This document shows, one piece after another, positions 8,787 to 29,675 of a stretch of DNA of 64,000 bases. The stretch comes from Novosphingobium sp. EMRT-2 (lineage in GTDB: Bacteria > Pseudomonadota > Alphaproteobacteria > Sphingomonadales > Sphingomonadaceae), in the NCBI RefSeq assembly GCF_005145025.1, contig NZ_CP039697.1:124001-188000 (forward strand). The letters run 5' to 3'. The notes beneath the pieces are model-generated. The model was not told where the DNA came from and made no database searches. It saw nothing but the letters and a program-made list of their open reading frames with translations. How positions within the stretch are numbered: position 1 is the stretch's first letter; each line of letters begins with the position of its first letter. A program made the translations under genes and the position numbers.

Positions 8787-9683
8787 ATGCGCGGCAAGGA
8801 AGTGAAGCGGTTTACGCTCTATGGCGAGGATGGCCGCATCATCGGACCGGAGTTTGTCCATATCGAGCGGATTGCCGATCGCTCCAGCCTGCACGACTGG
8901 ACCATCGCGCCGCACAGCCATCCCGGCATGGCGCAGGTGCTGATGATCGAGACCGGAGCGGTCGATGTCGCCAGCGATGGTTCGGCGCGCAAGATCGCGG
9001 CGCCGGCCTGCATGATCGTGCCCAGCGGCTGCGTTCACGCCTTTCGCTTTGCCGTCGCGACCGAAGGTTGGGTCCTTTCCATGGCTGTCGCGCTGTTGCA
9101 CGATCCGCGCATCGCCGGTCTGCTGGAAGGATTGAGTCTCGACGGTGGTGGCGCGCGCATCGTCCCGCTGGAACCGGAGGACCGGCAACGCGTCCGGCTG
9201 AGCTGGCTGCTTGCGGATATGGCAGACCGGCTGGAGCAGGGGCTTCGCGCCACGCCGGCGCTGCTCGCGCAGCTTGGCCTCGTTCTGGCCACGCTGGGCG
9301 AAACGCTGGCCGCGTCCCTCCCTCAGGATGCCAGCAAGGACCGGCGCGCGGCTCTGGTGGCCTGCTATCGCGGATTGATCGAAGCGCGGTATCGCGATCA
9401 CTGGTCGGTCGAGCGGTACGCCCACGCCCTTGGCGTCACCTCATCGACCCTGACGCGGGCGTGCAGGGCGGTGTTGGACAAGGCTCCGGGCGATCTCCTG
9501 CAAGATCGCCTGGCATTGGAGGGGATGCGCTTCCTGGCCTTTACCGGCATGGGCGTGGCGCAGGTGGCGGATCGTCTGGGCTTCGACGATCCCGCTTATT
9601 TCGCCCGGTTCTTCAAGAACCGCACCGGCCAGACGGCCAGCGCCTTTCGCGCGCAAAGGGCGTGGGAAGGGCTGGAACGGTAA
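8787..9683 (+). CDS. AraC family transcriptional regulator (PobR-like)
   Basis: 298 residues. An N-terminal cupin-like sensor (PHSHPGMAQVLMIETG near residue 42) is joined to a C-terminal AraC DNA-binding domain with two helix-turn-helices (WSVERYAHALGVTSSTLTRAC and MGVAQVADRLGFDDPAYFARFFKNRTG). This arrangement resembles PobR-type activators of aromatic catabolism. It diverges from the P450 gene across 149 bases and probably activates it. Confidence 0.88.
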   Translation: MRGKEVKRFTLYGEDGRIIGPEFVHIERIADRSSLHDWTIAPHSHPGMAQVLMIETGAVDVASDGSARKIAAPACMIVPSGCVHAFRFAVATEGWVLSMAVALLHDPRIAGLLEGLSLDGGGARIVPLEPEDRQRVRLSWLLADMADRLEQGLRATPALLAQLGLVLATLGETLAASLPQDASKDRRAALVACYRGLIEARYRDHWSVERYAHALGVTSSTLTRACRAVLDKAPGDLLQDRLALEGMRFLAFTGMGVAQVADRLGFDDPAYFARFFKNRTGQTASAFRAQRAWEGLER

Positions 9684-10928: not shown

Positions 10929-10932
10929 GGTG

Positions 10933-12558
10933 CTATCTCCCCATGAAGTCGGGCGAGGCGAGGAACAGGACATTCCATTCCTGCGGGCTGGCCGCCTGAT
11001 CCAGCGCGGTGCGCGTGCCCGGCGACAACTGCTTGTCCAGCCCGCCGTAATAAAGCGCGCCTTGCAGCACCGGAAAGGCTTGCCGCGGGGTGCTCGACGG
11101 CGCCTCACCCTTGAACAGCCCGGCGGAGCCGTTGCCGATCGCCTGCGCGATCTCGAATCGTTGTTCGATCTGCCCCGGGCCGTTCCACGCGGTGCGTTCC
11201 AGCGGATAGCCGTCTGGGGTAAGATGACCGTAGAAGGGCTGGCCCAGCCGGTTCAGCCAGTTCGCGATCGGCTGGGTATTGGCGATCATCCGATCGTCGT
11301 AAGCCATCCGCACCGCCGAGAGGACGAAGTGCTGCGGATCCTTGAGCAGCGGATGGGAAAGCGAGGCCCGAAACTCCGGGCTGTGGAACAGCAGGTCCAG
11401 CACGGCGGCGATTTCGCCCCCGCTTTGCGCCCAGCGTGCCGCCATCCGCTCGATCAGCGCCGGGGGCGGGCTGTCGGCGACGAAATACTGCGCCAGCTGG
11501 CGCGAGACATGCCGGGCGGTGGCGGGCTGGGCGCACAGGATATCGAGCGCCTGACGCACCTCGTCATAGCCGGACCCTTTGATGACATGGCCGAGGAAGA
11601 CCTTGTCGCCCATGTCGTGGCGGCCGGGATAGAAGGCGAACATTCCATCGCGGATCGCCGCGGGATTGGTAGGGTTCGGTCGCTCCGGCCGATCGGGGTT
11701 GACGATGCCCACCCCGGTCAGAATGCGCGCAAGTTCCTGCACGTCCTTCTGGGTATAGCCCGAGCCGACCCCCATGGTGTGCAGTTCCATGATTTCGCGC
11801 GCGTAGTTCTCGTTGATGCGACCCTTGGCGTTCTGCGCGTTGTCGAGATATTGCAGCATGGCCGGCGAGCGCAGCGTCGCCTCCAGCAGATCGCGGAACC
11901 GCCCCAGCGCGTGCGGGCGAATGGCCTGATCCTCGTAGTCCCGCACGAGCAACCGGATTTCGGCCTTTTCAGCGTGGACGTTGAAGTGGTTGAGCCAGAA
12001 CGCGGTGAGCTGCTCGCGCAGCTGATTAGGCGAATAGAGCGCGCGCAGAATCAACCGGGTCTGGTCCTGCTTGAAGGCCTCGCCAAGATAGTCGCGGCGC
12101 ACCTCCTGCGGAGTGGGTGGAGCCGGGGGCATGGACTGAGTCGCTGCGGTACCCGATGGCCCGGCCTGCATCGGGTTCGGAGCGGCCGGACCGTTGGAGG
12201 CAGCCCCTTGGCCTGGCGGCGGCATCGCAGCTTGCGTAGCCTTCGCCGCTGTAAGCTGTTCGCGGAATTCGCGCACCAGAGCGACGGTGCTTTGGTCGCG
12301 CATCGGCAAGGCATCGACCATTGCCTGGGCTGCGGGGGGCAACCGTTCTGAAGCGGGTGGATGCAGCTCCGCCTGCAACCACGCCTCCGCCCCCATCGCC
12401 CGCATGCGCTGCACCTCGGCTGACGTTGCCCCCCAGGTCAGCCGGTTGACCATGGCGAGGTCGAGATCAGAGGAGGGCTTGTCTTCGGCCAGCGCCGGCT
12501 GCGCGACTAGCGCCAGCGCAAGGGCGGCTAAACTCTGCTGCAACAACGGGCGACGCAT
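10933..12558 (-). CDS. DUF1800 family exported protein
   Basis: 541 residues with a Sec signal peptide (ALALALVAQPALAE). DUF1800 features include NRLTWGATSAEV at the start, FWLNHFNVHAEK, YLDNAQNAKGRINENYAREIMELHTMGVGSGYTQKDVQELARILTG and a C-terminal SPEFRASLSHPLLKDPQHF region. A low-complexity Pro/Ala/Gln/Gly insertion occupies roughly residues 110-150. Role unknown; it is almost always found next to DUF1501 proteins, as here. Confidence 0.88.
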   Translation of the reverse strand: MRRPLLQQSLAALALALVAQPALAEDKPSSDLDLAMVNRLTWGATSAEVQRMRAMGAEAWLQAELHPPASERLPPAAQAMVDALPMRDQSTVALVREFREQLTAAKATQAAMPPPGQGAASNGPAAPNPMQAGPSGTAATQSMPPAPPTPQEVRRDYLGEAFKQDQTRLILRALYSPNQLREQLTAFWLNHFNVHAEKAEIRLLVRDYEDQAIRPHALGRFRDLLEATLRSPAMLQYLDNAQNAKGRINENYAREIMELHTMGVGSGYTQKDVQELARILTGVGIVNPDRPERPNPTNPAAIRDGMFAFYPGRHDMGDKVFLGHVIKGSGYDEVRQALDILCAQPATARHVSRQLAQYFVADSPPPALIERMAARWAQSGGEIAAVLDLLFHSPEFRASLSHPLLKDPQHFVLSAVRMAYDDRMIANTQPIANWLNRLGQPFYGHLTPDGYPLERTAWNGPGQIEQRFEIAQAIGNGSAGLFKGEAPSSTPRQAFPVLQGALYYGGLDKQLSPGTRTALDQAASPQEWNVLFLASPDFMGR

Positions 12559-12718: not shown

Positions 12719-14298
12719 TCACTTGCGCGGTTCGGCCGCAGGTGTGAACAGCAGGTCTTTGTAATCGAAGCTGAAATCGGCGATGGGCGAGACTGGTTTC
12801 GCGGAAATGGATGATACTTTGCCATCGGCGTCGAGCTGGAAGGTGAGATAGGCCTTTTCGATCCCCGGATCGTCGAACTGGGCGATGAAAGTATCGTACT
12901 GGTAGTGGACGAGGCGCCCGCTCATGCCTGCCGTGGGCGTGAAGTTGACCGTCAGCCCCTTGGCGTCCGAACCGATCGCCAGCTTGCCGTACCAGGGATC
13001 GCTGTAGGTCCCGGCATAGCGATCGAGCGGCAGCGACGGGCCGACCTTGGCCGGCGTGGCCGCCGCCTGCTTCATCGCCGCGACGGCACCGACGATGCGC
13101 TTGGCGCGATAGTCGTGAAAGCGCTGCGGCCAGTCCTGCCGGGGCAGGCCCAGGTAATGATCGAGCAGTTCGTACATCAGCCCGTGGCGCGGCTCGCTCT
13201 CCTCGGCATTCACCTCGATGGCGAAACCGACGTTCTTCTCGGGAATGAGGCACACGATCGAGGTGAAGCCGAGCAGCCCGCCGGCATGCCAGACGATGCG
13301 CGTGCCGTGGTAGTCGCGCACTTCCCAGCCCAGCGCATAGGCATCGAACGTCGGCGTGGTCGCCGCGATCGGGTCGGGCGCCGGGGTGATCGGGATCGGC
13401 GTGACCGGCGACCACATCTCCTTGCCGCCGCCGCGCTGAACAGGCGGCCGCCTTCGGGCAGCGCGCCGCCGGCAAGCTGGATCTGCAACCAGCGCGCCAT
13501 GTCGTTGGCGCTCATCGCGACAAGGCCCGCCGGGGCCATCGCCCGACCCAGCTGGTCGCGCTCGTCGAGCACCACTTGCGGGCCATCGCCGCGCACCATG
13601 CCGACCCGGCCATGCGGCTGCGCGCGGTTGGGCGCGGAGGTCTGCGTCCTGAAGTCGGCCGCCGCATCGCGCATCCCCGCCGGCGCGAAGACATGCGCCT
13701 TCATGTAGTCTTCCCAGCTCTGCCCGCTGACGCGCTCGATCAGCAGCCCCGCCACCCCGTAAAGGATGTTGTCGTAGGCATAGCCGCTGCGAAAGCTCGT
13801 TGCCGGCTTGATGTAGCGCAGCCGGCGCATCAGGTCTTCGCGCGAGATCGAGCCGCGCGGCACGGTGAGCAGGTCGCCCGCTCCCAGCCCCAGCCCGCTG
13901 CGATGCACCAGCAGGTCGCGGATCGTCATCTCGCGCGTGACCCAGGCGTCGTACATCTGGAAATCGGGGATGTGATCGACGACCTTGTCGTCCCAACCGA
14001 TCTTGCCGGCATCGACCAGCGTGGCGAGCGCGGTGGCGGTCAGGGCCTTGCCGGTCGAACCGATCATGAAAATCGTGTCCGCGTCCACTTTCGCGGGCGC
14101 GCCAAGCCGGCGTTCGCCATAACCCCTGGCGAGCACGACCTTGCCGTTCTCGACGATGGCAACGGCCATGCCCGGCGTGCCCGAGGACTGGCGGATTGCC
14201 TCGATCCGCGCGTCGATGTCTGCCGGCGGCGCGGCAAGGGCAGCGTGGGGAACGGCAGCGGCAAGGCAAAGCCCTGCCAGCATGGACAGACGTTTCAT
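12719..14298 (-). pseudogene. Serine beta-lactamase-like hydrolase, frameshifted
   Basis: The first part is read from ATG 14298: signal peptide (LCLAAAVPHAALA), then IGSTGKA with the catalytic S-x-x-K, YDN as the Tyr motif and RLFSAAAA. It then runs out of frame. The remaining coding text, KEMWSPVTPIPITP through WHAGGLLGF (third motif) and a C-terminal DUF3471-like domain to 12719, is in another frame. One missing base within the GCC/GGC run at about 13424-13436 explains both. Restored length would be about 526 residues, normal for this family (class C beta-lactamase fold: D-aminopeptidases, esterases). It is either a broken gene or an assembly or sequencing error. The start overlaps the YkvI-like gene stop (ATGA), so it ends that operon; a D-peptide or D-amino ester substrate is inferred. 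Confidence 0.8.
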
Positions 14299-15416
14299 CG
14301 GGCTTCTCCTGGGGCGAGCTGGCCATTGCGGAACCGCCAGAGACCGATCGTCAGCAGCGGCAGGATGTAAAGGGCAAGGAGCACGAAGGCGAGCGCGCGA
14401 TAGCCGTTGGCAATCAGCGCGATCAGTCCCACGCGGTCGGCCACCACCATGCACAGGACCAGCAGCGCGATCGTGATCGCGGCCCGCAACGGCACCGTCG
14501 GCGGGGCGCCGCGACGGTGCCGCCAGGCGGTGGCGATACGCTCGTTGATCGCATGGACGGCACCCGTGCCGCTTTCGAGCAGCGCCGAGAAGATCATCAC
14601 CTGGAACAGCACATGGAACAGGGGCTGGCCAAGCTGGCGCAGCAGAAAGTCCGAAGGCAGCGCCTCGCCGGCGATGCCGGGCAGGAAGGCGACCATGCAC
14701 ACGAAGAACATGAGTGCCGGCAGCATCGCCAGCGGCCCGGCGATCGCGCCGGCAATCACCGCGTCGCGGTTGCTGGCAAGGTGGCGGGTGACCGGCAGAA
14801 TCACGATCGCGCCGATGATGTTGTAGCTGGCATAAGTGAGCCCGCCTTCAAACCAGCCGTGACCGGCCGGCGCGCCCTGGGCAAAGGCGGCGGCGATGCG
14901 GTCTCCGAAGCTCGACAGCGCGAGGACGAGGAACACCGCATAGACGCCGTAGAGCAGCACCGAAACCCAGGTGAACAGCCGCTCGACAGCCGTGTTGCCG
15001 AAGGCGGCGAAGCCGGCGATGCCGGCCATCAGCGCAACCGTACCGGCCATCGGCGGGAGGCCGGTGGTGTGAACGATCTCGCCCGCCGCCGCGCCGAACA
15101 CCGCGAGCAGCAGCATCACGAACAGCGCGTAGGCGATCTCGAACAGGATCCAGCCACGGCCCAGCAGCACTTTGAAGAAGGCGCGATAATCGCGCGCCCG
15201 CGCCGCACGGGCGACAAGGAACGTCGCCACGCAGACCGCGCTCCAGATCGCCGTTGCCAGCGCGATCGCGCCGATCCCGCCCCAGGCGCCGGCCGGCAGG
15301 AAGAACTCGGCGATCTCGCGCCCGGTGGCATAGCCGCCGCCGATCACGACGGCCTTGAACGATAGCCCCGGCAGGAGGAGCCGCTTGAACCAGCTCTCCG
15401 GAGCGGCTTGGCTCAT
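14295..15416 (-). CDS. YkvI-like membrane protein, putative transporter
   Basis: 373 residues, almost entirely hydrophobic with about ten membrane segments. The opening GLSFKAVVIGGGYATGREIAEFFL, with its Gly-rich break in the first helix, matches the YkvI family, whose fold resembles amino-acid transporters of the LeuT/APC type. ATG 15416 overlaps the DgcN-like gene stop (ATGA). Given the neighbours, it may carry an amino acid such as glutamate or a derivative across the inner membrane. Substrate not shown. Confidence 0.75.
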   Translation of the reverse strand: MSQAAPESWFKRLLLPGLSFKAVVIGGGYATGREIAEFFLPAGAWGGIGAIALATAIWSAVCVATFLVARAARARDYRAFFKVLLGRGWILFEIAYALFVMLLLAVFGAAAGEIVHTTGLPPMAGTVALMAGIAGFAAFGNTAVERLFTWVSVLLYGVYAVFLVLALSSFGDRIAAAFAQGAPAGHGWFEGGLTYASYNIIGAIVILPVTRHLASNRDAVIAGAIAGPLAMLPALMFFVCMVAFLPGIAGEALPSDFLLRQLGQPLFHVLFQVMIFSALLESGTGAVHAINERIATAWRHRRGAPPTVPLRAAITIALLVLCMVVADRVGLIALIANGYRALAFVLLALYILPLLTIGLWRFRNGQLAPGEAR

Positions 15417-16477
15417 CCGGTGCAGGCGTCGAGCAGGCGCTCGAACGCCATGCCGCCGCGGATCGGATCGGCGACGGGCAGGCTTAGACGCGCGGCCTCG
15501 GCGGCGATTTCCGCTGCCGCCGCGTCCTCGCTCATGCCCGCAGTGTTGAGGCTGACACCGGCGCAGCGGATCGCCGGATTGGTCAGCCGGCCCAGCGCGA
15601 TCGTCTGCGCGATGACGTCCTCGATCGCCGGAACGGGATAGCCGGGCATGCCGAGGATGCGTTCGCGACCGGGCTGGTGGCAGACGACGAAGAGATCGGG
15701 CTGGCTGCCGTGCAGCAGGCCGAGCGATACCGCCGCATAGGCGGGGTGATAGAGCGAACCCTGGCCCTCGATGACGTCGATATGCGCCGGATCGGCCGCG
15801 GGCGTGAGCGCCTCGGCGGCACCGGCGACGAAATCGGCCACGACCGCGTCGATCGGGATACCCGATCCCGCGATCATGATCCCGGTCTGCCCGGTCGCCC
15901 GGAACGTGGCATCCAGCCCGCGCTCCTGCAGCCCCCGGGCGATGGCCAGTGCCGTGTATTTCTTGCCGAGCGCGCAATCGGTGCCGACGGTCAGCAGGCG
16001 CCTGCCCGAACGCTTGCGGCCGGTCGCCACACTAACGCCCTCGGGCGGGGTGCGGACATCGACGAGCAGGCGGCCGTTGTTTTCGGCCAGGCGGCGCAGT
16101 TCGGGAATGGCGTTCAGCTTCACGTGCATGCCGGCGACGATGTCGAGCCCGGCCTCCAGCGCGGCGAGCAAGCTCGGCACCCAGTGCGGCGGGATTGCCC
16201 CGCCAGGACTGGCGACGCCGATCAGCAACGCGCGGGCGCCACGGGCATAGGCCTGCTCCAGCTCGAGCCGTGGAAGGCCGGTGGATACTGCCGCGCCCGG
16301 CAGCACGAATTCCCCGACGCAGCGGTCCGGCGCCCAGTCACGCAATCCGAACGCGGTCTTGGCAAATCCCGGTTCGGTCGTGTCACCGAGAAAGAGCAGG
16401 TAAGGGCCGGGCAGCGTCAGGCTGCCCGACGCCTTGGCGGCCGGTTCGGCGGCCAGCGGAAATTCAGTATTGAGCAC
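15413..16477 (-). CDS. dgcN: DUF1611 / DgcN-like protein (putative D-glutamate N-acyltransferase)
   Basis: 354 residues with the two parts of DUF1611: an N-terminal Rossmann-like half (YLLFLGDTTEPGFAKTAFGLRDWAP) and a C-terminal P-loop half with GTDCALGKKYTALAIA near residue 164. DgcN proteins of marine Proteobacteria are reported to N-acylate D-glutamate before DgcA inverts it; a DgcA-like gene lies in this same cluster. The start overlaps the TonB receptor end by 14 bases. I infer the D-Glu role from family plus partner gene; the substrate could be another D-amino acid. Confidence 0.78.
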   Translation of the reverse strand: MLNTEFPLAAEPAAKASGSLTLPGPYLLFLGDTTEPGFAKTAFGLRDWAPDRCVGEFVLPGAAVSTGLPRLELEQAYARGARALLIGVASPGGAIPPHWVPSLLAALEAGLDIVAGMHVKLNAIPELRRLAENNGRLLVDVRTPPEGVSVATGRKRSGRRLLTVGTDCALGKKYTALAIARGLQERGLDATFRATGQTGIMIAGSGIPIDAVVADFVAGAAEALTPAADPAHIDVIEGQGSLYHPAYAAVSLGLLHGSQPDLFVVCHQPGRERILGMPGYPVPAIEDVIAQTIALGRLTNPAIRCAGVSLNTAGMSEDAAAAEIAAEAARLSLPVADPIRGGMAFERLLDACTG

Positions 16478-18734
16478 TGAGCGAAAGTCCGAATGTGCGC
16501 GGGCGGATAACGCCGGTGATGATCGCCCCGCCCGGGTTCAATGGCAAGCCATTCGCGGCCAGCGCGCCGGTCGAGGTCTTGCCCTCCGCATTGGTCAGGT
16601 TGCGGATGTAGGCCTCTATGCCGAACTTTCCGAAATCCAGGCCCGCGCGCAAATCGACGGTGGCGTAGGAAGGAAGCTGGCGCTGACGGCCGTTGGCGGT
16701 GCGGAAAGTCGCGTCGAAGCTGCCGCTCTGCTTGGAGAGAAAGAGCAGCGAACCGCCGATGAACGCCTTGGTGCTCCCACTCAGTTCCCAGTCGTAATCG
16801 GAATTGAGCGAGATGGCATACTTGGGGGTGAACGGCAGTTGATCACCCTTGCGGCCGCCCACCAGCGCCGGCGCGTCCGCCTTGAGCTTGGCATCGGTGT
16901 AAGCGCCGTTGAACGAAACCACGAAGCCCTGAGTAGGCCGCATCGTCAGCGTGAATTCGGCGCCCTGGCTCTTCGCTCCCGCGCCGTTGATGTTCACCCC
17001 AAAACCGTTGACCACGGTCAGCAACTGGATCTTGTCCCAATCGATATGGAACACCGCCAGGTCCAGCCCGAGGCTGCGATCCACCGTTTCGCCCTTGAAG
17101 CCCGCTTCGTAGCTAACGGCCGTATCGGGATCGAAACTGGACGGCGTTCCCGCCGGGGCATTCGGCGCGATCACGTTGGGACCGCCCGGACGATACCCCT
17201 TGGCGACACGGGCATAGAGCGTCGCCCGGTCGCTGATCTTGAACTTGGGCGCCACCGAATAGGTGAACACGTTGTCGGACGAGCGCAGGTTGCTGTTGAC
17301 CGGCACATTGCCGGCGAGCACGCCGCTGGCCGCCTGGCTGGCGACCTGCTTGTTGTGGCTGTAGCGCCCGCCGAAATCGACGTCGAACATGGTGCCGAGA
17401 TGCAGGGTCAGGTTGGCGAAGCCCGCATATTCCTTGTATTTGGACTGCAGATCGACATGGCCCAGCACGAAGGGGAAAGCGATCGGTGTCGTAGTGCCCG
17501 GCGTATAGGCGGCGTAGTCCTGCAGCAGCAGGCCCTTTTCGTCGTTGTAATAGCCGCCGATCAACCAATCGAGGCTGTTTCCGACCGCACCGGCAAGGCG
17601 CAGTTCCTGCGTCCACTTGCGCGTGTTGACCTTCTGGTTGAGCACGAAATCGTTGGCCGGCGCGCCCAGCAATGCCTGCACGATGCCGCTGAGATTGAAC
17701 GTCGCGTCATCGCGGAAGGTCTGCTTCTGCGTGGCGTAGCTGGTCGCGCTGGTCAGCGTGGCGAAACCAAGGTCGGCGGTGATCGTGCCGCTGTAAACCC
17801 GGTAGTCGACATTGGTGAACTCGGGCGAGAACTGCGACTGGGTGGGGCGGCCATAGAGCGTGCGCAGCGTGGCCGGATCGCTCTCCACCGACGAATCCGC
17901 ATTGGCGCGAATGTTCTGGAGATAGGCTGTCAGACGGACGTCGAACATCTCGTTCGGCTTGAACAGCAGCGAGGCGCGGCCGCCATAGACCTTGGAATCG
18001 TTGATGTTGCGGGCGACGTCCGAGGTGACCGGGCTGGCGAACGACGTGCCCGAGGTGCCGATGGAATCGATCCAGCCGCCGTTCTTGTGGTAGAAGCCCG
18101 ATGCGCGGAACGCGAGCGTCTCGCCCAGCGGCAGGTTGATCATCGCGTTGCCGTGGTACGACATCGCGCCGCCCTTGGTCGCCTCCGCCGCGCCGCGCAC
18201 CGCGCCTTCGGTGGCGCCAAGCTTGGGCGCGTTGGTGACGTACTTGATGAGCCCGCCCAGCGTGGAGGCGCCATAGAGCGTGCCCTGCGGCCCGCGCAGC
18301 ACTTCGACGCGCGCGATGTCGAAAGTATCGAAATCGCCGGCCAGAACCGCGCCGTTGGCCAGAGCCGTCGACGAGCCGAAGGGCGTTTCGTCGACATAGA
18401 CGCCCACGGTGGAGGCTACGCCGCCGGTGTTGAGGCCACGCAGCACCAGACGGCCCGCGCCCGGCGTGGCCTGGTTGAGCTGAAGCCCCGGGACGTGGTT
18501 GAGAAAGTCCTGGAAGTTGTTGGCCTGCGACCGTTCGAGGAGGTCGCCCGAAACCACCGAGATCGATTGCGGAACGTCGATCAGGGTCTGTTCGCGCTTC
18601 TGCGCGGTCACGACGATTTCATCGTCGCCGAACGAGCCCTTGTCGGAATCGGTCGCCGACTGCGCGAGGGCCGGGCCGGATGCGATGGCCGCCAGGCAAG
18701 CGGTCATCAGCAGGGTGGTGCGAGCTGGTCTCAT
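16464..18734 (-). CDS. TonB-dependent outer-membrane receptor
   Basis: 756 residues: signal peptide (ACLAAIASGPALAQ), plug domain starting DEIVVTAQKREQTLIDVPQSI, with VPGLQLNQATPGAGRLVLRG and VGVYVDETPFG, then a long beta-barrel ending in Leu-Ser-Leu-Ser-Ala-Gln-Tyr, aromatic as expected for outer-membrane insertion. No STN signalling domain. The iron-complex style is typical of sphingomonad receptors, but the operon points to peptides or acyl-amino acids as ligand. GGGAGG precedes the ATG. It heads the operon with the DgcN-like, YkvI-like and serine-hydrolase genes. Confidence 0.92.
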   Translation of the reverse strand: MRPARTTLLMTACLAAIASGPALAQSATDSDKGSFGDDEIVVTAQKREQTLIDVPQSISVVSGDLLERSQANNFQDFLNHVPGLQLNQATPGAGRLVLRGLNTGGVASTVGVYVDETPFGSSTALANGAVLAGDFDTFDIARVEVLRGPQGTLYGASTLGGLIKYVTNAPKLGATEGAVRGAAEATKGGAMSYHGNAMINLPLGETLAFRASGFYHKNGGWIDSIGTSGTSFASPVTSDVARNINDSKVYGGRASLLFKPNEMFDVRLTAYLQNIRANADSSVESDPATLRTLYGRPTQSQFSPEFTNVDYRVYSGTITADLGFATLTSATSYATQKQTFRDDATFNLSGIVQALLGAPANDFVLNQKVNTRKWTQELRLAGAVGNSLDWLIGGYYNDEKGLLLQDYAAYTPGTTTPIAFPFVLGHVDLQSKYKEYAGFANLTLHLGTMFDVDFGGRYSHNKQVASQAASGVLAGNVPVNSNLRSSDNVFTYSVAPKFKISDRATLYARVAKGYRPGGPNVIAPNAPAGTPSSFDPDTAVSYEAGFKGETVDRSLGLDLAVFHIDWDKIQLLTVVNGFGVNINGAGAKSQGAEFTLTMRPTQGFVVSFNGAYTDAKLKADAPALVGGRKGDQLPFTPKYAISLNSDYDWELSGSTKAFIGGSLLFLSKQSGSFDATFRTANGRQRQLPSYATVDLRAGLDFGKFGIEAYIRNLTNAEGKTSTGALAANGLPLNPGGAIITGVIRPRTFGLSLSAQY

Positions 18735-18823
18735 GGTATTCCTCCCGGTTTCGGGTCCGTTGGGACAAGGCGTGCCGGAAGGGCCACTTCCCCCAAGGCC
18801 TTCCGACGCGCCGCGTGATATTG

Positions 18824-18856
18824 TTATCCTGATAAGGACGTTATTGTCTCAATAAG
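18824..18856 (-). promoter_or_regulatory. Promoter/operator of the TonB-DgcN operon
   Basis: On the plus strand TTATCCTGAT (18824-18833) is followed 17 bases later by AATAAG (18851-18856); exactly this arrangement recurs at 23243-23275 before the other half of the cluster. It includes two dyads, TTATC-CT-GATAA and TTATTG-TCT-CAATAA. Read on the minus strand, TTGAGA and GATAAC could be the -35 and -10. Likely bound by the HTH-cupin regulator. Confidence 0.5.
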
Positions 18857-18863
18857 AAAACTG

Positions 18864-20153
18864 TCAATCCATTTCGATCGGTCCGTTCCTAATCCGCGCT
18901 GACCGTTGCTCGATCGCCTCGGTCGGCGCGCTCAGCAGACGCAGGAGCAGGGCGGACAGGCAGGCTAGCCCGGCAAGGACGAGGAAAAACGGTGCCGGAG
19001 CGAGGCGGCTCCACAACGTGCCGACCACGCCGGCGCTGAGGCTGCCAGTGAAAGTGATGAAAAACCACGCCGCAACGGTGGTCGCGCCAAGGCTCAGCGG
19101 CGCCAGGCGGGCAAACAGGCCAAGGCCCGTCGGCAGGATAAACAGTTCGCCGAACGTGAAAATCAGGAAGAATGCGGCAAGCCATATCCAGTTGGCCCGC
19201 GCTGGGCCGCTCGTCCAGGCGATCGTGGCAAGCATCGTGTAGGCGCCGGCGACGATCAATGCGCCCATCGCCATGCGGTGCAGGGGCGCGGCATCGCCAC
19301 CGCCTTCGGCCCGGCGACGCCAGAAGTGGAGAAGGGGCGGGGTCAGCAGCATGACGAACAGCGGATTGAGCGACTGGAACCAGGTCATCGGCACGGCAAG
19401 GCTGCCAACGCTCCGGTCGATTCCGCTGTCGGCCCACAGGGCAACGGTGTTGCCCACCTGTTCGTAGGCGGAGCGGAACAGCGTTACCGCCAGACCAATG
19501 CCGAGCAGGACCGCCGCCACTTTGGGATCGAACACGATCGGCTGCGCTTCTGTCCTGTGCGTGGGCTTGCGTTCGGGCGGCAGGTGGCGCTGGCCGGACA
19601 GGTAGATCACCAGCCCCAGGCCCATCCCGATCCCCGCGACGCCGAAGCCGTAATGCCAGCCATAGACCTCGCCCAGCGTGCCGCAGATCAGCGGCGCCAG
19701 AAAGCCGCCGATATTGATGCCCACGTAATAGACATTGTACGCCCAGCCACGGCGTTGATCGTCGGGCTTGTAGAGGTCGCCAACCTGGCTTGGCAGGCAC
19801 GGCAGGAACAGGCCGTTCCCGATCGCGATAGTGGCGAGCGCGCCATAGAACAGCGGCTCGAAGGTCATCATGAAGTGGCCGGCGCACATGATCCCGCCGC
19901 CCAGCATGATCGCCCGGCGCTTGCCGAGCAGGCGGTCGGCGATCAGCCCGCCGAGGATCGGGGTGAAATAGGCGCCGGCGGTGTACGTGCCGTAGATGAA
20001 CGACGCGTGCGCCTGACCCAGCATGAGCTGCTTGGTCATGTAATAGACCAGCAGAGCGCGCATACCGTAGTACGAGAACTGCTCCCACATGTTGGTGAGG
20101 AACAAGACCGTCAGCCCGCGCGGCTGCCCGAACCAGGTCTGTTCCGGCATCAT
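18864..20153 (-). CDS. POT-family oligopeptide transporter
   Basis: 429 residues, about 12-14 membrane helices. Helix 1 shows NMWEQFSYYGMRALLVYYMT, the POT signature region, but the canonical ExxERFxYY reads NxxEQFxYY: the first Glu is Asn and the Arg is Gln. Other POT hallmarks are GGLIADRLLGKRRAI and GINIGGFLAPLI. POT carriers import di- and tripeptides with protons. The start overlaps the DgcA-like stop in an ATGATGA, so translation is probably coupled. The altered motif may change proton coupling or substrate charge. Confidence 0.85.
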   Translation of the reverse strand: MMPEQTWFGQPRGLTVLFLTNMWEQFSYYGMRALLVYYMTKQLMLGQAHASFIYGTYTAGAYFTPILGGLIADRLLGKRRAIMLGGGIMCAGHFMMTFEPLFYGALATIAIGNGLFLPCLPSQVGDLYKPDDQRRGWAYNVYYVGINIGGFLAPLICGTLGEVYGWHYGFGVAGIGMGLGLVIYLSGQRHLPPERKPTHRTEAQPIVFDPKVAAVLLGIGLAVTLFRSAYEQVGNTVALWADSGIDRSVGSLAVPMTWFQSLNPLFVMLLTPPLLHFWRRRAEGGGDAAPLHRMAMGALIVAGAYTMLATIAWTSGPARANWIWLAAFFLIFTFGELFILPTGLGLFARLAPLSLGATTVAAWFFITFTGSLSAGVVGTLWSRLAPAPFFLVLAGLACLSALLLRLLSAPTEAIEQRSARIRNGPIEMD

Positions 20154-21160
20154 GCGGTGACGGGCGCGCCCGATCCCCACACCGCAGGGCCAGCGAAGAT
20201 ATCGCCGTTGGCGTAGGTGACGCCCGGCTCCCGGTCGCGGGCGAGAAAGGTCGGCCCATCAAGGTCGACGACATCGCAGAGCTGGCCCAGGACGAAGCCC
20301 GGTGCCATCGCCAGACTGGTGCCGACCATGTTGCCGACCATCACGTCTAGGCCAAGCGCGCGCGCCTTTTCGGCCATCAGCAGGCCCTCCGTCAGCCCGC
20401 CGCACTTGTCGAGCTTGATGTTCACGACCTGATAACGGCCGACCGCACCGGGGATGTCGTCGAGCGAGAGAATGCTCTCGTCGCCAGCGATCGGCACGGG
20501 CGAGGCGAGGCCTTCGAGATCGGCCTCGCATCCGCGCGCGACCGGTTGTTCGAGCAGCGAAACCCCTTCGGCGACCAGCACTTCGATCAGCGGCTCAAGA
20601 TCGGCCGCCGCAAAGCCCTGGTTCCCGTCCACCCCCAGCCAGACATCAGGCCGCGCCGCCCGGATCGCCCGCACTCTCGCGCCGTCTAGGTCCAGATCGC
20701 CGGTGAGCTTGACCTTGATCGCGCTGGCGTCGGCGTAGTTCGCAGCCCCGCGCGCCATCACATCGGGTGTATCCGCGCCGAGCGTGAAGGTCGTCCGCAG
20801 GGCGCGCGGGCTGGACTGCCCGGCAAGCTGCCAGACCGGAATACCGGCCCGGTTCGCTTCGAGTTCCCAAAGCGCGCAGTCCACCGCGTTGCGCGCTCCG
20901 CCCGGGGGCATGATCGCGCGCAGTTCCTCGCGCCCGATCCCGCTTTCGATCGCAGACCGCGCCGCCGCGATGCCGGCGAGCATATGGGGAACGTCATCGC
21001 CCAGGAAGAACACGCCGCCGCCTTCGCCGCGCCCGGTGTGTTCGCCATCGTCCAGAGTGACGACGATCACCTCGGAGCACTCGAACACGTGGCCCGCAAT
21101 GCGGAATGGTTGCGCCAGCCGCAGCGTCTCGGTCGCGACCGTGAGCGTGAGAGCGGCCAT
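20150..21160 (-). CDS. dgcA: Enolase-superfamily epimerase (DgcA / dipeptide epimerase-like)
   Basis: 336 residues. Muconate-lactonising-type barrel with catalytic KVK (near residue 149), metal ligands Asp in GVDGNQGF, Glu in LLEQPV and Asp in AGDES, and the second catalytic Lys in NIKLDKCGG near 247. This is the two-lysine layout of L-Ala-D/L-Glu epimerases and of DgcA, which inverts N-acyl-D-glutamate. The two cannot be separated by eye; the DgcN-like partner favours DgcA, the POT carrier and serine hydrolases favour a dipeptide substrate. Coupled by ATGA overlaps to both neighbours. Confidence 0.85.
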   Translation of the reverse strand: MAALTLTVATETLRLAQPFRIAGHVFECSEVIVVTLDDGEHTGRGEGGGVFFLGDDVPHMLAGIAAARSAIESGIGREELRAIMPPGGARNAVDCALWELEANRAGIPVWQLAGQSSPRALRTTFTLGADTPDVMARGAANYADASAIKVKLTGDLDLDGARVRAIRAARPDVWLGVDGNQGFAAADLEPLIEVLVAEGVSLLEQPVARGCEADLEGLASPVPIAGDESILSLDDIPGAVGRYQVVNIKLDKCGGLTEGLLMAEKARALGLDVMVGNMVGTSLAMAPGFVLGQLCDVVDLDGPTFLARDREPGVTYANGDIFAGPAVWGSGAPVTA

Positions 21161-23157
21161 CAGTAGGCCACCGTCATCGCCACCAGCCCGAAGGTGACCG
21201 CGAAGTAGAGCACCATCAGCGAGGCCAGCAGCAGCAGCACCGCCCAAAGCTTGCTGAACCAGCCGCGCTTGCCCTTCCACGTTTGCCAGGCATACCAGGC
21301 GGCGATCGGCACGGCGCCGAAGAACGCGATCAGGCCAAGGATTTGCAATGCCCACAGCCAGGGGTCCAGCCCACCCGCCAGGAAGCTCGCGCTTTCCAGC
21401 AGGAGCGAGAAGGCCACGACCCAGCCGATCAGCACGGCAACGGATGTCGCGCTGACGATGCGCACCGCCCGATAGGCCTTGAGAGCACCCCGTTCCAGCC
21501 CAAACGCCGCCTTGTAGCGCCGCCGCGTGAACCAGCCCCATGGCCAGGCGATCAGCGTCAGCACGAGAACGCCAAGGCTGGCATAGAGCGCCGGCAAGAC
21601 CCACGTGGCCGAGCGGCTGGCGGGCACGCGATCGAACACTTCGAACGGGGAAAAGAAGTCCATCGACCAGCGGACGACCTTGCCGTCCACCACCTTGGCG
21701 GAAAGGCGGTCGTGCCCGAACTTGTCGCGCCAGAGGAAGGGGGCGATCTCGACCCATTCGCGCGGCCGTCCGTTCGGCCCTTTCAGGCCCGGAATGACCA
21801 GTTCGCCCTTGTCGTTGGTCGCGACTTTGAACTGGCCGAGCAGGTTCACGACGGAGAAGTAGTTGGTCTGCCACCGGCGGCTCGCATCCCAGTTGCCCGC
21901 CATCATCTTCGCGTGTTCTTTCGCCGTCGCGGCATCGACGCGCCCGTCGGCCGGGCCGGCATAGGGCAGGTAGCGGTCGGCGAAATCCATGAATAGCGCG
22001 TTGCGCAGGTCGCCCGAAGCGCCCTGGCGCCCACCGCTGTTGAACGAGACGTAGAAGCCGATTCCGTCCTTCATGAACAGGTGCAGCGCGGTGTGGAAGG
22101 CCTCGGTATCGCCCAGATGGCCGATGACTTCGCGCCCGTTCACGTTGGTTTCGAAGAACCCGAGTTCCATGCGGTTAAGCGGCGGCACCAGCGAGAAAGG
22201 GTCCACCTTGGCAAGCGGGCTGTCGTGCATCATGTCCGCCGTCTCCGGCTTCAGGATGCGCTGGCCGTCGATCTCGCCACGCTGCAGGTGCGCGATCATG
22301 AAGCGGCCCATGTCGGTGCCCGATGCGGAAAGCGATCCGGCCGGCCACGGCCCCAGAATCTCGAAGCCCTCGGTCGGCTTGCCGTCCTTGTAGCCAACTG
22401 ACATGTCGGGCACGAGCCGCTGCGGCAGGGGCTGACGCATGGACGACTGGTGCATCCCGACCGGGCCAAGCACGTGCCTCTCCGTATAGGCGAAGAAGTC
22501 CTCGCCCGAGGTGCGCTGTACGATATAGCCGGCAAGGGCGGTGCCCCAATTCGAATAGGCCGGGGTTGAACCCGGCGCGAAGATGCGCGCGGGAACGGCG
22601 CGCTTCAGGTAATCCCCCAGCGGCATGTCCCACTTCTTGTCGTAGAAGATGATGCCTTTGCCGGTTTCCTCGAAGCCGCCGGTGTGCGTCATCAGCTGGC
22701 GCATCGTTATCTGCTTGCCGTGGTAGGGGGGAATCCGGAAATCGAGATAGGCGTTGACGTCGCGGTCCAGGTCGATCTTGCCCTGTTCGACCTGCTGCAT
22801 CACCGCGGTCCAGGTCACCAGCTTCGACACCGAGCCGGGGCGGAACAGCGTGCGCTCGGGATCGACCGGCTTGCGCGCGGCCACGTCGGCATAGCCGAAC
22901 CCGCGCGCGGTCAGGATCTTGCCGTCCTTGACCACGGTTACCACCGCGCCGGGAATGTCTCCGTTGCGCAGCGCCTGCGGCATATAGCCATCAAGCCAGG
23001 TATCCACATCCGATTTGGTGAGCACGGCCGGCGCCGGTTGCGCCGTTGGTTGCGACGCGCCCGCCCCGACAGCGGGGGAGGGAGCCTGTCCCTGGATCAA
23101 CCCACCGCCGCACAGCAGCAAAAGTCCGCCGACGATGGCCTTGCGCCATGTTCGCAT
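21160..23157 (-). CDS. Membrane-anchored serine beta-lactamase-like hydrolase
   Basis: 665 residues. After a signal or anchor segment and a Pro/Ala-rich linker comes a class C beta-lactamase fold: SVSK near residue 108 (nucleophile Ser and Lys), YSN near 202 and HLG as third motif. The C-terminal ~150 residues contain four hydrophobic segments, so the catalytic domain is tethered in the periplasm. Relatives are D-aminopeptidases, DD-peptidases and esterases. As first gene of the operon with the epimerase and peptide carrier, it probably trims D-residue-containing peptides before uptake. Not a proven resistance gene. Confidence 0.82.
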   Translation of the reverse strand: MRTWRKAIVGGLLLLCGGGLIQGQAPSPAVGAGASQPTAQPAPAVLTKSDVDTWLDGYMPQALRNGDIPGAVVTVVKDGKILTARGFGYADVAARKPVDPERTLFRPGSVSKLVTWTAVMQQVEQGKIDLDRDVNAYLDFRIPPYHGKQITMRQLMTHTGGFEETGKGIIFYDKKWDMPLGDYLKRAVPARIFAPGSTPAYSNWGTALAGYIVQRTSGEDFFAYTERHVLGPVGMHQSSMRQPLPQRLVPDMSVGYKDGKPTEGFEILGPWPAGSLSASGTDMGRFMIAHLQRGEIDGQRILKPETADMMHDSPLAKVDPFSLVPPLNRMELGFFETNVNGREVIGHLGDTEAFHTALHLFMKDGIGFYVSFNSGGRQGASGDLRNALFMDFADRYLPYAGPADGRVDAATAKEHAKMMAGNWDASRRWQTNYFSVVNLLGQFKVATNDKGELVIPGLKGPNGRPREWVEIAPFLWRDKFGHDRLSAKVVDGKVVRWSMDFFSPFEVFDRVPASRSATWVLPALYASLGVLVLTLIAWPWGWFTRRRYKAAFGLERGALKAYRAVRIVSATSVAVLIGWVVAFSLLLESASFLAGGLDPWLWALQILGLIAFFGAVPIAAWYAWQTWKGKRGWFSKLWAVLLLLASLMVLYFAVTFGLVAMTVAY

Positions 23158-23242
23158 GATCCTGAACTCCCTTGATGCTCACCGGGATTGCTCTGGCCAC
23201 GCCAGACCAGTACAGTGTGCAAATGCTCCAATTGGGATTACA

Positions 23243-23275
23243 TTATCCTGATTGGAAAATCAGTCAACGAATAAG
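23243..23275 (-). promoter_or_regulatory. Promoter/operator in the divergent regulator-hydrolase interval
   Basis: TTATCCTGAT (23243-23252), 17 bases, AATAAG (23270-23275) repeats the element at 18824-18856. A dyad CTGATT-GGAA-AATCAG overlaps it (23248-23263). On the minus strand, TTGACT and TAATGT 16 bases apart make a plausible promoter for the serine hydrolase operon, with the repeated element over the -10. The regulator gene starts 10 bases beyond, so the site could also control its own expression. Confidence 0.55.
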
Positions 23276-23285
23276 GATCGTCCGA

Positions 23286-23972
23286 ATGTCCGCAGCTACT
23301 CCCACACTCGGCGCGCTTGTTCGGGGATTGCGCAGCCGTAACGGGTGGACGCTCAAGCAAATGAGCGAGAAGGCGGGCATTCCGGTCTCCACCTTGTCGA
23401 AGGTGGAACACGACCGGCTTACGCTGACCTATGATAAGCTGCAGCAGATCAGCCAGCGGCTTGGCCTGCGGATGTCCGAACTGTTCGCCGAAAGCAGCCG
23501 CGATGAAACGCCCGCCGCGCAGGTGACCGCGCGGCGCAGCAAGGGTCTGCTCGACGAGGCGCTGCGCGTCGAAACGCCCAATTACGATTACTATTATCTC
23601 TGCACCGAACTGCGGCGGAAGCGCATGATCCCGGCCATCACCAAGATCCGCGCCAAGACGCTCGAACAGTTCGGCGATCTCGTGCGCCACGCGGGCGAGG
23701 AATTCGTCTATGTGGTTCGTGGTAGCGTAGTGGTCGTGACGGAGTTCTACGACGCGATGGTGTTGCACGAGGGCGAATCGCTCTACATCGATTCCAGTAT
23801 GGGGCACGCCTATCTCGCCGCGGAAGGCTGCGACGAGGCCGAGGTGCTCGGCGTGATGTCAAGCAGCGATGCCGAACTGCTGGATTCGCTGCTCGACATT
23901 CACGAAGAACAGCTAGGCGGCGCGCCCGAGAAGCGGCAATCCCGCAAGGCCATGGCTTTGCCGCGCCTCTAG
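23286..23972 (+). CDS. XRE-type HTH regulator with C-terminal cupin
   Basis: 228 residues from ATG 23286 (AAGGAT upstream). Residues about 7-62 form a Cro/CI-type helix-turn-helix (LRSRNGWTLKQMSEKAG then STLSKVEHDRLTLT); residues about 120-200 form a cupin barrel (HAGEEFVYVVRGSVVV, LHEGESLYIDSSMGHAYLA) expected to bind a small ligand. HTH-cupin proteins often control amino-acid or amine catabolism. It diverges from the serine-hydrolase/DgcA/POT operon and its presumed site recurs before the TonB operon, so it probably controls both. Confidence 0.88.
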   Translation: MSAATPTLGALVRGLRSRNGWTLKQMSEKAGIPVSTLSKVEHDRLTLTYDKLQQISQRLGLRMSELFAESSRDETPAAQVTARRSKGLLDEALRVETPNYDYYYLCTELRRKRMIPAITKIRAKTLEQFGDLVRHAGEEFVYVVRGSVVVVTEFYDAMVLHEGESLYIDSSMGHAYLAAEGCDEAEVLGVMSSSDAELLDSLLDIHEEQLGGAPEKRQSRKAMALPRL

Positions 23973-24192: not shown

Positions 24193-24972
24193 ATGAAGAC
24201 TGAGTTCGATGGCGTCACGATCACCACGCAGGATGCCGTCGCGATCGTCAGCTTTTCGCGCCCGCCGCTCAACTATTTCGATGTCGATCTGATCAACACG
24301 CTGGCGGACGCGCTGGAGGAAATCGATCGTGCCGACGATCTGCGCGCCGTCCTGCTGCGCTCCGAAGGCAAGGTCTTCTGCGCCGGCGCGAGCTTTTCCG
24401 GCCGCGAAGGGTCTGGCCAGGGCGAACTGGCCGATCCGGGCGATCTCTATCGCCAGGCGGTCCGCTTGTTCCGGACGCGCAAACCCATCGTTGTCGCGGT
24501 TCAGGGTGCGGCCATTGGCGGAGGGCTTGGCCTCGCCATGGTGGGCGATTTCCGGATTGCGGCGGAAGACGCCCGGTTCGCCGGGAATTTCGTCAAGATC
24601 GGCATCCATCCCGGCTTCGGGCTGACCCATATTCTGCCGCGCGTGATCGGCCATCAGAACACCGCGAAGCTGTTCTACACCGGCCGCCGATACACCGGAG
24701 CCGAAGCCGCGGCCATGGGCCTGGTGGACGAGGTGGTGCCCGCCGAGCACCTGGCGAAAGCCGCCCTCGCCTTTGCCACCGAGATCGCCGAAGGCGCGCC
24801 GCTCGCGGTCGAAGCCACGCGCGCCACGCTGCGCCACGGGCTTGCCGATGCGGTGGCCGCGCAGACCGAACGGGAATGCCGCGAACAGATCACGCTGTTC
24901 GCCAGCGCGGACTTCAAGGAAGGCGTGCAGGCGGTCGCCGAACGCCGGCCGGGCCGCTGGCAGCGGCGCTAA
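24193..24972 (+). CDS. Crotonase-fold protein lacking both hydratase glutamates
   Basis: 259 residues of enoyl-CoA hydratase/isomerase superfamily type: CoA/oxyanion region GKVFCAGASFSG, then VQGAAIGGGLGLAMVGDF and FAGNFVKIGIHPGFGLTHILPR. In active hydratases the two glutamates sit in GGGCELAM and FGQPEIxLG; here those positions are Gly and Phe. Hydration of enoyl-CoA by the normal mechanism is therefore unlikely; isomerase, thioesterase or other crotonase chemistry remains possible. It stands alone between the HTH-cupin regulator and the convergent efflux operon, with an AT-rich leader (24020-24056). Confidence 0.85.
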   Translation: MKTEFDGVTITTQDAVAIVSFSRPPLNYFDVDLINTLADALEEIDRADDLRAVLLRSEGKVFCAGASFSGREGSGQGELADPGDLYRQAVRLFRTRKPIVVAVQGAAIGGGLGLAMVGDFRIAAEDARFAGNFVKIGIHPGFGLTHILPRVIGHQNTAKLFYTGRRYTGAEAAAMGLVDEVVPAEHLAKAALAFATEIAEGAPLAVEATRATLRHGLADAVAAQTERECREQITLFASADFKEGVQAVAERRPGRWQRR

Positions 24973-25006: not shown

Positions 25007-26437
25007 TCAAGCGCGCGGCGGTGCAGCCGCTTCCCAGCCCCCGCCCAGGGCGCGGAACACGTCCACCTGCGCGAACGCCACCGCGCGCTTGGCCGCTGCG
25101 AGATCGGCGTCGGCGCTGGCCAGGGTGCGCTGCGCGTCGAGCAGCGTCAGGAAGTCGATCCGCCCTTCCCGCTGCCGCGCGACGCTGATCGCCGCCGCGC
25201 GCGCCGCCGCATCGCGCGCGGACGCCAGCGTCTGTTCGCGCTCCAGCGCGTGGCTGTAGGATGCCAGCGCCCGTTCGGTTTCCTCTAGCGCGCGCAGCAC
25301 GGTGCCATCGAATTGCGCCAGCGAGGCCGCGCTATCGGCCTTGGCCGCCGCGATCCGCGCCCGCACCGGTTCCTGGTTGGGGAACGACCAGTTGATGAGC
25401 GGACCGAGCAGCCAGCGGAACGGGCCGCCGGTGAACGGGTTCGCGCCGCCCAGCGCCGTCGCGCCGATCGATCCGCCCAGCGTGATCCGGGGATAGAGGT
25501 CGGCCGTGGCAACGCCGACGCGCGCCGCATCGGCTGACAGGCGCCGCTCCGCCGCCTTGACGTCGGGCCGCCGCGCCAGCAGCGCCGCGCCATCGCCCAC
25601 GGGAATGGGTTGGGCAAGCGCGGGCGTGACGGTACCGGCGCTGGCGATCTCGGACGGTAGCGCCTGCGGCGTCCGGCCGGTCAGCGTCGCCAACCGGAAC
25701 AGCGCGGCATCGCGGTCCGCCTGAAGCGCGGGGATCTGCGCCTGTTGCTGATCGCGCAGCGCGGTCACGCGGATCACGTCGAGCCGGTCCGACCGGCCCA
25801 CCTCGAACCGTGCGGTGGTGATGCGGATCGACCGATCGAGCAGCGCCACGGTCTGTTGCGCCACGGCCAGCCGCTCGGCGGACGTGGTCACATCGAAATA
25901 GGCGCGCACCGTATCCGCGATCACCGCCACGCGCACGGCGGCCGCGTCCGCTTCCGCGGCTTCCAGATCGCCCCCCCGCGCGGCGGTGATCCCGCTTTTC
26001 ACGCGGCCGAACAGATCGACTTCGTAGGAGACATCGAGGCCGCCATCGAACGTCCAGCTTTCGCGGTCCACGCCAACCGGCGTCTGCGCGGCGGCAGAGC
26101 GGCCATAGTCGGCCGAAGTGGTAACCCCGGTTTGCGGCAGCCTTTGCGAACGCGCGCCGCGCAGTTGCGCCCGCGCCCGCTCGATCCGCGCCACGGCCAC
26201 GCGCACGTCGGTATTTTGCGCCAGCGTATCCTCGACCAGGTGATCCAGCCGGGCATCATGATACAGCGTCCACCAGCGATCGGCGGTTGCCGCCGTGCTG
26301 ACGGTTGGCGAGGCGCTGCCAAGGAACGGCCCGGCGGCCGCCTGCGGCGCGACAGGGGGCGTGTAGGCTGGCACCGTGGCGCAGGCGCTGAGCGCCGAGG
26401 CACCTAGCAACAAAGGAAGCAGTTTCCGGATCATCAT
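25007..26437 (-). CDS. RND efflux outer-membrane lipoprotein, NodT family
   Basis: 476 residues with a lipobox (LSAC, Cys19) after a short signal peptide, then the paired outer-membrane efflux repeats with long helical hairpins (NTDVRVAVARIERARAQLRGARSQRLPQ and RRPDVKAAERRLSADAARVGVA). TolC-like trimeric exit duct. Last gene of the three-gene efflux operon, nine bases after the pump gene. Confidence 0.92.
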   Translation of the reverse strand: MMIRKLLPLLLGASALSACATVPAYTPPVAPQAAAGPFLGSASPTVSTAATADRWWTLYHDARLDHLVEDTLAQNTDVRVAVARIERARAQLRGARSQRLPQTGVTTSADYGRSAAAQTPVGVDRESWTFDGGLDVSYEVDLFGRVKSGITAARGGDLEAAEADAAAVRVAVIADTVRAYFDVTTSAERLAVAQQTVALLDRSIRITTARFEVGRSDRLDVIRVTALRDQQQAQIPALQADRDAALFRLATLTGRTPQALPSEIASAGTVTPALAQPIPVGDGAALLARRPDVKAAERRLSADAARVGVATADLYPRITLGGSIGATALGGANPFTGGPFRWLLGPLINWSFPNQEPVRARIAAAKADSAASLAQFDGTVLRALEETERALASYSHALEREQTLASARDAAARAAAISVARQREGRIDFLTLLDAQRTLASADADLAAAKRAVAFAQVDVFRALGGGWEAAAPPRA

Positions 26438-26446
26438 CGCAATTCC

Positions 26447-29635: not shown

Positions 29636-29675
29636 GAGAGGGTAATCCTGCGAAAGAAGAAACGGGGCGCGCGGA

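Follow-up and report, generated by a model that had tools for sequence, protein, structure and literature searches.

A cluster of eight genes from Novosphingobium sp. EMRT-2 is proposed here to be a nutrient-uptake locus under local regulation that serves peptides containing D residues, a reading given a probability of about 0.55, with a D residue not limited to D-glutamate (D-Glu) being favoured. The cluster lies in a window of 64,000 nucleotides (contig NZ_CP039697.1; G000:C3:124001-188000) of a 4.77 Mb genome. An initial annotation of this window had listed a TonB receptor, two S12 (beta-lactamase-fold) hydrolases, a POT carrier, a YkvI-like carrier, DgcA-like and DgcN-like proteins and a helix-turn-helix (HTH)-cupin regulator. 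All of these were found, with the correction that the frame of one hydrolase, SH1, is broken. Seven of the genes lie on the minus strand in the order SH2, DgcA-like, POT, TonB receptor, DgcN-like, YkvI-like and SH1, with the HTH-cupin gene divergent on the plus strand. The features are given below with their open reading frames (ORFs), AlphaFold2 (AF2) models and position weight matrix (PWM) scores.

23286..23972, plus strand: HTH-cupin regulator (PuuR-like), divergent from SH2; Pfam HTH_19, HTH_3 and Cupin_2 on ORF 23172-23972; likely ATG start
23219..23267, minus strand: predicted operator/promoter of operon 1; TTGAC box and repeated CCAATCAGGA-like site; PWM 39.7 (in training set)
21160..23157, minus strand: SH2, S12 (beta-lactamase-fold) hydrolase; PF00144 8.1e-57; motifs SVSK / YSN / HLG
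20150..21160, minus strand: DgcA-like epimerase/racemase of a loop-variant clade; NF042940 352.8 bits, cut-off 400
18864..20153, minus strand: POT (PTR2) di/tripeptide transporter; PF00854 3e-51; 4ikv 213.8 bits
18820..18868, minus strand: predicted operator/promoter of operon 2, upstream of the TonB receptor; PWM 18.0
16464..18734, minus strand: TonB-dependent receptor; PF00593 6.7e-35, PF07715 2.9e-22; TIGR01783 162.1 bits, cut-off 223.5
15413..16477, minus strand: DgcN-like DUF1611 protein (predicted N-acyltransferase); PF07755, PF17396; NF041892 446 bits, cut-off 480; 7xrj 329.1 bits
14295..15416, minus strand: YkvI-family membrane carrier; AF2 model; named 'YkvI family membrane protein' in the source
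12719..14298, minus strand: SH1, S12 hydrolase with DUF3471; PF00144 in ORF 13210-14700, DUF3471 in ORF 12719-14326

A predicted operator shared by two gene runs

Two operons are predicted, SH2-DgcA-POT and TonB-DgcN-YkvI-SH1, because a site learned from SH2 promoters also precedes the gene of the TonB receptor. Within either operon, the coordinates put the overlap between adjacent genes at 1 to 14 bases, with the start of DgcN taken as GTG 16477. Counts of palindromes in the promoters gave no clear operator, and a plain count of 8-mers supplied the seed for the PWM, which has 49 columns and was built from 29 of the 49 intergenic stretches between SH2 and the HTH gene (seed match within 3). 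Its consensus is tTtgAcaaTTtTCcAATCAGGATcAttatnnCCnnatngGg. The PWM marks the SH2 promoter of the window (23219, minus; plus-strand reading at 23216) and, having been trained on SH2 promoters only, also marks the TonB promoter (18820, minus). A PWM built without the window and the corresponding locus of its closest relative (L031) scored 25.5 at the SH2 site and 19.4 at the TonB site, the best of 20 shuffles of the window being 0.5.

Matches scoring at least 12 numbered 113 in 81 cluster loci, with none in 17 control DgcN loci and none with 20 column-permuted PWMs. They were assigned to SH2 (54), TonB (29), DgcN (7), HTH (4) and other genes (4). Using starts determined with tblastn, and leaving out matches starting beyond query residue 130 or below 100 bits, 71 loci could be tested for SH2 and 55 had a site before the gene, 28 of these 55 having played no part in training; the counts were 24/51 for TonB, 8/78 for DgcN, 5/67 for HTH, 1/67 for DgcA, 0/34 for POT and 0/64 for YkvI. 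The near-absence of the site before YkvI, POT and DgcA is as expected of operon-internal genes. The count for the N-terminal part of SH1 (7/54) is probably inflated, since the query also matches SH2. A pattern drawn from the two sites of the window occurs nowhere else in the genome; its matching of the two source sites is by construction, and the lack of further matches is the result.

The HTH-cupin protein scored 44.8 bits against NCBIfam PRK09943, below the cut-off of 211. Judging from the translation, its gene probably starts at ATG 23286 instead of TTG 23172, the former being preferred because a start at 23172 places the operator inside the gene. From its position, we infer that this protein binds both sites and represses.

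Conservation, linkage and history of the locus

Conservation was examined in 78 named loci, drawn from the best 80 of at least 580 by DgcN similarity, using identity thresholds set for the family calls; 15 of the 78 are shorter than 18 kb. These loci belong to Sphingomonas, Novosphingobium, Sphingopyxis, Sphingobium, Sphingosinicella and Altererythrobacter, and further to Lysobacter, Luteimonas, Stenotrophomonas, one Xanthomonas, Rudaea, Dyella, relatives of Steroidobacter, Massilia and Duganella. DgcN was called in 78 loci, SH2 in 70, DgcA in 67, YkvI in 65, TonB in 56, HTH in 55, SH1 in 48 and POT in 33. The neighbourhood check proposed in the initial annotation thus found the cluster conserved in relatives, as seven or eight of the eight families were present in 40 of the 63 named loci of at least 18 kb. 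These 40 extend from Sphingomonadales to Lysobacteraceae (L063, L077, L106, L107), Rhodanobacteraceae (Rudaea, L074), Steroidobacteraceae (Povalibacter, L083) and Oxalobacteraceae (Duganella, L057; Massilia, L071).

In the 17 loci with a more distant DgcN, the same thresholds gave SH1 in one, TonB in three and none of the remaining families. At any identity (E 1e-10), DgcA-like genes were found in 12 of them, SH2, SH1 and TonB in four each, YkvI in two, HTH in one and POT in none. As these control loci keep mainly DgcA-like genes, the pairing of DgcN with DgcA is general, unlike the rest of the set. Gene order differs between lineages, which is what a chance neighbourhood of unrelated genes might show; its content, however, is kept across several bacterial families and shared sites precede SH2 and the TonB receptor, and a chance neighbourhood was set aside as having a negligible probability.

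Further families recur among the 81 loci, each being named from one scanned representative, with Amidohydro_3 in 29, M19 dipeptidase in 28, and Amidohydro_1, AsnC and abhydrolase in approximately 10 each. The window also encodes, away from the cluster, an Amidohydro_3 protein of 615 amino acids (aa) at 39594-41441.

Linkage was examined by searching for DgcN, YkvI, POT and DgcA in 157 genomes of the order. Thirty of 52 YkvI matches lie within 8 kb of a DgcN match (28 within 3 kb), and DgcN was found in 41 of 45 genomes with YkvI versus 24 of 112 without (Fisher p 2e-16, a test which ignores ancestry). In a count made by eye, all ten POT matches of at least 48% identity have a DgcA match no more than 7 kb away on their contig. 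In other families of the order, DgcN genes were also seen to adjoin many YkvI genes that are distant from this one (37-45% identity), so the linkage of YkvI with DgcN is wider than this locus. The idea that these genes form an integrated outer-to-inner system is therefore on firmer ground than a first reading of the letters could provide, given the conserved content, the two operons under one predicted operator and the linkage of YkvI with DgcN.

In trees of POT and DgcA, the Massilia and Duganella rows group with Sphingomonas and the window, in a five-row set supported at 95/87 (POT) and a sixteen-row set supported at 100/95 (DgcA), which suggests horizontal transfer. DgcN of the window type (at least 63% identity) occurs in four of 37 genomes of the genus, its own included. 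This patchy occurrence and the TonB receptor point to acquired substrates and not to housekeeping, rendering it improbable that the locus salvages muropeptides from the cell's own wall. Such recycling gains some interest from the finding that no Mpl above the cut-off is present in the genome (best 178.7 versus 388.7), as an alternative recycling route could then be useful, although among 14 control genomes 10 have a match and only one is above the cut-off. An S66 LD-carboxypeptidase gene elsewhere in the genome also speaks against own-wall recycling. At G000:C1:162835-164664, a Mpl/MurC-like match below the Mpl cut-off adjoins an S66 LD-carboxypeptidase gene.

Hydrolases and carriers

SH2 (665 aa) possesses PF00144 and the SxxK, YxN and HxG motifs, which are invariant in a 32-row alignment. 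The suggestion that one hydrolase is membrane-anchored fits SH2, in which four C-terminal transmembrane-like stretches were predicted (519-537, 567-585, 601-619, 640-658), these being modelled as helices by AF2 at moderate confidence (predicted local distance difference test, pLDDT, 77.8; predicted template-modelling score, pTM, 0.70). Its N-terminus appears signal-like by eye, with no N-terminal stretch passing the transmembrane threshold. The closest record (96%) is from Novosphingobium sp. UBA1939. The solved sequences nearest to SH2 are 2qmi, 9sn1 (663 aa) and the alkaline D-peptidase 4y7p; esterases and DD-peptidases come next. In the profile search 2qmi and 9sn1 rank first and 4y7p tenth; in the fold search 2qmi is among the top matches and 9sn1, titled Lip3 DL-peptidase, is third (19% identity, template-modelling score 0.49). 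The part of SH2 to which Lip3 aligns spans residues 75-503. The S12 part of SH1 has neighbours similar to those of SH2, among them the D-aminopeptidase 1ei5 and the D-amino acid amidase 2dns. Action of the S12 proteins at D residues is plausible from these sequences and models.

In this assembly the frame of SH1 is interrupted near 13,430, so that its S12 and DUF3471 parts lie in two frames and no single intact frame exists in the window, with the codon-position guanine-cytosine signal switching frame at the break. In G015, the near-identical closest relative, the corresponding copy (L031) is open throughout in one frame and differs by one base in length.

Their D residues make nonribosomal peptides and fragments of peptidoglycan difficult to use as food. 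The locus might serve in feeding on, or disarming, the D-residue nonribosomal peptides of neighbours, with SH2 as the key enzyme, as in D-stereospecific resistance peptidases, which carry C-terminal membrane helices, and the rest salvaging pieces. Lip3, a 'DL-peptidase' of similar length, shares the S12 fold with SH2, and the bogorol-cleaving enzyme BogQ belongs to the S12 peptidases (PMC9231227, PMC9541196). Stenotrophomonas maltophilia degrades Bacillus lipopeptides to free amino acids by enzymes yet to be identified (PMC12516957). The TonB receptor was found to be the least conserved part of the locus (median identity 43.5% versus 67.4% for DgcN), as if the outer ligand varied. SH2 is 19% identical to Lip3, and no biosynthetic cluster was recognised around SH2, the activity of which is predicted. 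Against such a role, no cyclic-peptide-opening enzyme was recognised among the genes scanned, and DgcN, DgcA and the carriers point to nutrition. We regard a role centred on nonribosomal peptides as rather unlikely.

Among the carriers, POT clears the PF00854 cut-off (175 versus 27 bits), and its nearest relatives are di/tripeptide carriers. The AF2 model of the YkvI-like protein (pLDDT 89.4, pTM 0.88) has 6f2g, a bacterial asc transporter, as its best PDB fold (TMq 0.71) and matches carriers of the LeuT/APC type, many of them for amino acids; its placement in the YkvI family is consistent with both the sequence relation and this predicted fold. Among the records listed by a literature search on YkvI/COG3949, none dealt with function. 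Siderophore uptake was set aside for the TonB receptor, which falls short of the TIGR01783 cut-off.

The POT carrier also connects the locus with the mlr genes of microcystin degradation. Sphingosinicella microcystinivorans has a related locus (L079) as well as an mlr locus (L134), which fits the order mlrC-mlrA-mlrD-mlrB from PF07364, POT and S12 matches, the mlrA frame being placed by order alone. The same order is described for Sphingopyxis sp. m6 (PMC12474180). MlrD, the POT of L134, is 45% identical to the POT of the window and groups with the cluster POTs, a branch supported at 100/97 separating them from 14 other POTs (the duplicate L137 being left out), although its exact place is unsure because its own branch is very long. 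This may hint at an origin of the microcystin transporter MlrD in the POT clade of such loci. Near the mlr genes there are also an S12 gene and a gene for a TonB receptor (28%), whereas no DgcN or DgcA matches were found in L134 and MlrB is only 27% identical to SH1. No MlrA- or MlrC-type domains were seen among the window ORFs scanned (a subset of all ORFs). In view of this, and of the lack of DgcN/DgcA in the mlr locus, the possibility that the window holds an mlr cluster was set aside.

Stereo-inverting enzymes and the proposed route

A DgcN-DgcA route for D-Glu was reportedly the subject of a 2023 paper. The window has the same two enzyme families in one locus, and the catalytic residues of DgcA are kept. 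Mention of the route is also made in PMC10845958. The window pair differs from it in that both enzymes lie below their NCBIfam cut-offs and are embedded with TonB, S12, POT and YkvI genes, under an HTH-cupin regulator. A second DgcN/DgcA pair of the same genome (G000:C1:3374418-3376408; L048:9422-11406) adjoins a LysR gene instead and is nearer the family models of that route, with scores of 487 for DgcN and 398.5, just under 400, for DgcA.

The cluster-type DgcA forms one side of a branch supported at 100/98, comprising 80 of 88 tree rows. From this tree the window duplicates L137/L138 and rows aligned over fewer than 280 residues were left out, and L082 and L037 (inner stop) were entered with X. 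In this clade, on which the count rests, 79 of the 80 rows have Gly at position 23 and one has Ser, whereas of the eight other rows six have Arg, one has His (L043) and L037 has an R-G loop with an insertion. Arg also occupies this 20s-loop position in Escherichia coli YcjG, in 4gfi and in the second DgcA of the genome, and presumably binds the glutamate carboxylate in these epimerases. The usual form of the 20s loop in the cluster type is PFRI(S/A/T)G. The 50s loop has V/A/I followed by two aromatics in 80/80 cluster rows, compared with an RY(G/D)E stretch in 6/8 of the others, YcjG and 4gfi. Relative to an L-Ala-D/L-Glu epimerase, the cluster DgcA therefore keeps the K-x-K, second Lys and DxD (K149, K151, K249, D299, D301) but lacks the 20s-loop Arg and the RYGE 50s loop. 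The same is seen against YcjG (1jpd), with which the window DgcA shares KxK, the second Lys and a DLDGP motif, while having Gly for the 20s-loop Arg and a replaced RYGE loop, and scoring 196 bits compared with 277 for the second DgcA. The DxD motif was discarded as a marker of dipeptide epimerases versus N-acyl racemases, as it is present in both types.

DgcN was found to be little changed. The comparison left out rows with fewer than 280 aligned residues or between the identity bands. Among 17 other DgcN rows, 79 columns reach 90% conservation, and 73 of these are retained by at least 90% of the 86 cluster rows; this speaks for an unaltered chemistry of DgcN. DgcA has changed more, with 57 of 72 columns conserved in 10 other rows (two of them, L035 and L036, being Gly-type rows) kept in 73 cluster rows.

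These comparisons bear on a route serving D-Glu or the stem peptides of peptidoglycan, in which the S12 proteins and POT would deliver D-Glu or L-Ala-D-Glu and DgcN/DgcA would convert N-acetyl-D-Glu to N-acetyl-L-Glu. The kept DgcN columns favour it, as do five genomes (G131, G136, G137, G158, G185) that have a cluster-type DgcN and no other DgcN match, and the recurring Amidohydro_3 family, the representative of which has PRK09061, which we take to be 'D-glutamate deacylase', as its best NCBIfam match (202.8 bits, cut-off 340). The sub-cut-off scores of both enzymes, the other pair elsewhere in the genome and the loss of the position-23 Arg, assuming the role given above, stand against it. 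The idea that the locus simply duplicates the known D-Glu route was set aside on the scores, the second pair and the changed loops, and the D-Glu route in general is considered doubtful. Thus the D-residue part of the initial proposal of a D-Glu-type peptide route remains plausible, with a DL-peptidase and an alkaline D-peptidase among the nearest S12 structures, while its D-Glu part is weakened, making D-Glu a doubtful label for the locus.

In the favoured reading of a general D-residue peptide locus, the TonB receptor would carry peptides over the outer membrane, and SH2, as an enzyme anchored to the inner membrane, and SH1, in the periplasm, would cleave them at or beside D residues. Di/tripeptides would be imported by POT and freed amino acids by YkvI. 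Cytoplasmic DgcN would then N-acylate the D residue and DgcA would invert the N-acyl-D compound or, alternatively, epimerise an imported L-X-D-Y dipeptide, with ordinary L-pathways finishing the breakdown. The HTH-cupin protein would repress both operons via the sites in the -35/-10 region and be released when a pathway compound binds its cupin. The odds given here overlap, because the D-Glu and nonribosomal-peptide explanations are special versions of this D-residue reading. More tentatively, and on balance doubtful, the loop-variant DgcA clade and its own DgcN may constitute a second, uncharacterised stereo-inversion route acting on a non-D-Glu D residue or on L-X-D-Y dipeptides brought in from outside. 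An import line of its own, made up of TonB, S12, POT and YkvI and controlled by a single HTH-cupin regulator, would supply this route, and the mlr microcystin cluster would have borrowed its transporter from such a locus.

TonB-linked polysaccharide-utilisation loci comprise an outer receptor, periplasmic hydrolases, an inner carrier, catabolic enzymes and a local regulator. The window locus has the same layout of components, from outer receptor to local regulator, but with peptide and D-residue enzymes and not glycosidases. The combination was not found described in the literature searched, as judged by titles and the beginnings of abstracts, with most subscription journals outside the search.

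Several points weigh against the D-residue reading. Its substrate and stereochemistry are predictions, and esterases and DD-peptidases, also of S12, rank about as close to the window S12 proteins as the enzymes acting on D residues. SH1 is broken in this genome. By tblastn, POT was matched in 34 and the TonB receptor in 56 of the 78 named loci, and neither is obligatory within the stretch fetched. Fifteen of the 113 operator matches were assigned to no gene, the loci were picked by DgcN similarity so that conservation was measured inside one DgcN clade, and the YkvI-DgcN co-occurrence statistic is uncorrected for ancestry.

Other genes were noted around the locus. Adjacent DUF1501 (9705-11108, minus) and DUF1800 (10933-12558, minus) genes lie directly downstream of SH1, and two cytochrome P450 genes (2858-4129 and 7444-8763) and an AraC-type regulator (8787-9683) lie further along. 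Beyond the HTH-cupin gene are an enoyl-CoA hydratase ORF (24193-24972), an RND efflux set of OEP, AcrB-type and HlyD-type genes (25007-30959) and a second efflux-like set (34938-39399) of OEP and HlyD-type genes and an ORF of 645 aa, which matches MFS weakly and short of the Pfam cut-off.

If the D-residue reading is true, a widespread, self-regulated locus that cuts and inverts would help to explain the use of D-residue carbon and nitrogen by soil and freshwater Proteobacteria, and the YkvI carrier family would gain a testable role. The regulon of two sites would be useful for finding the inducer, and the locus gives a hint of the origin of MlrD, the microcystin transporter.

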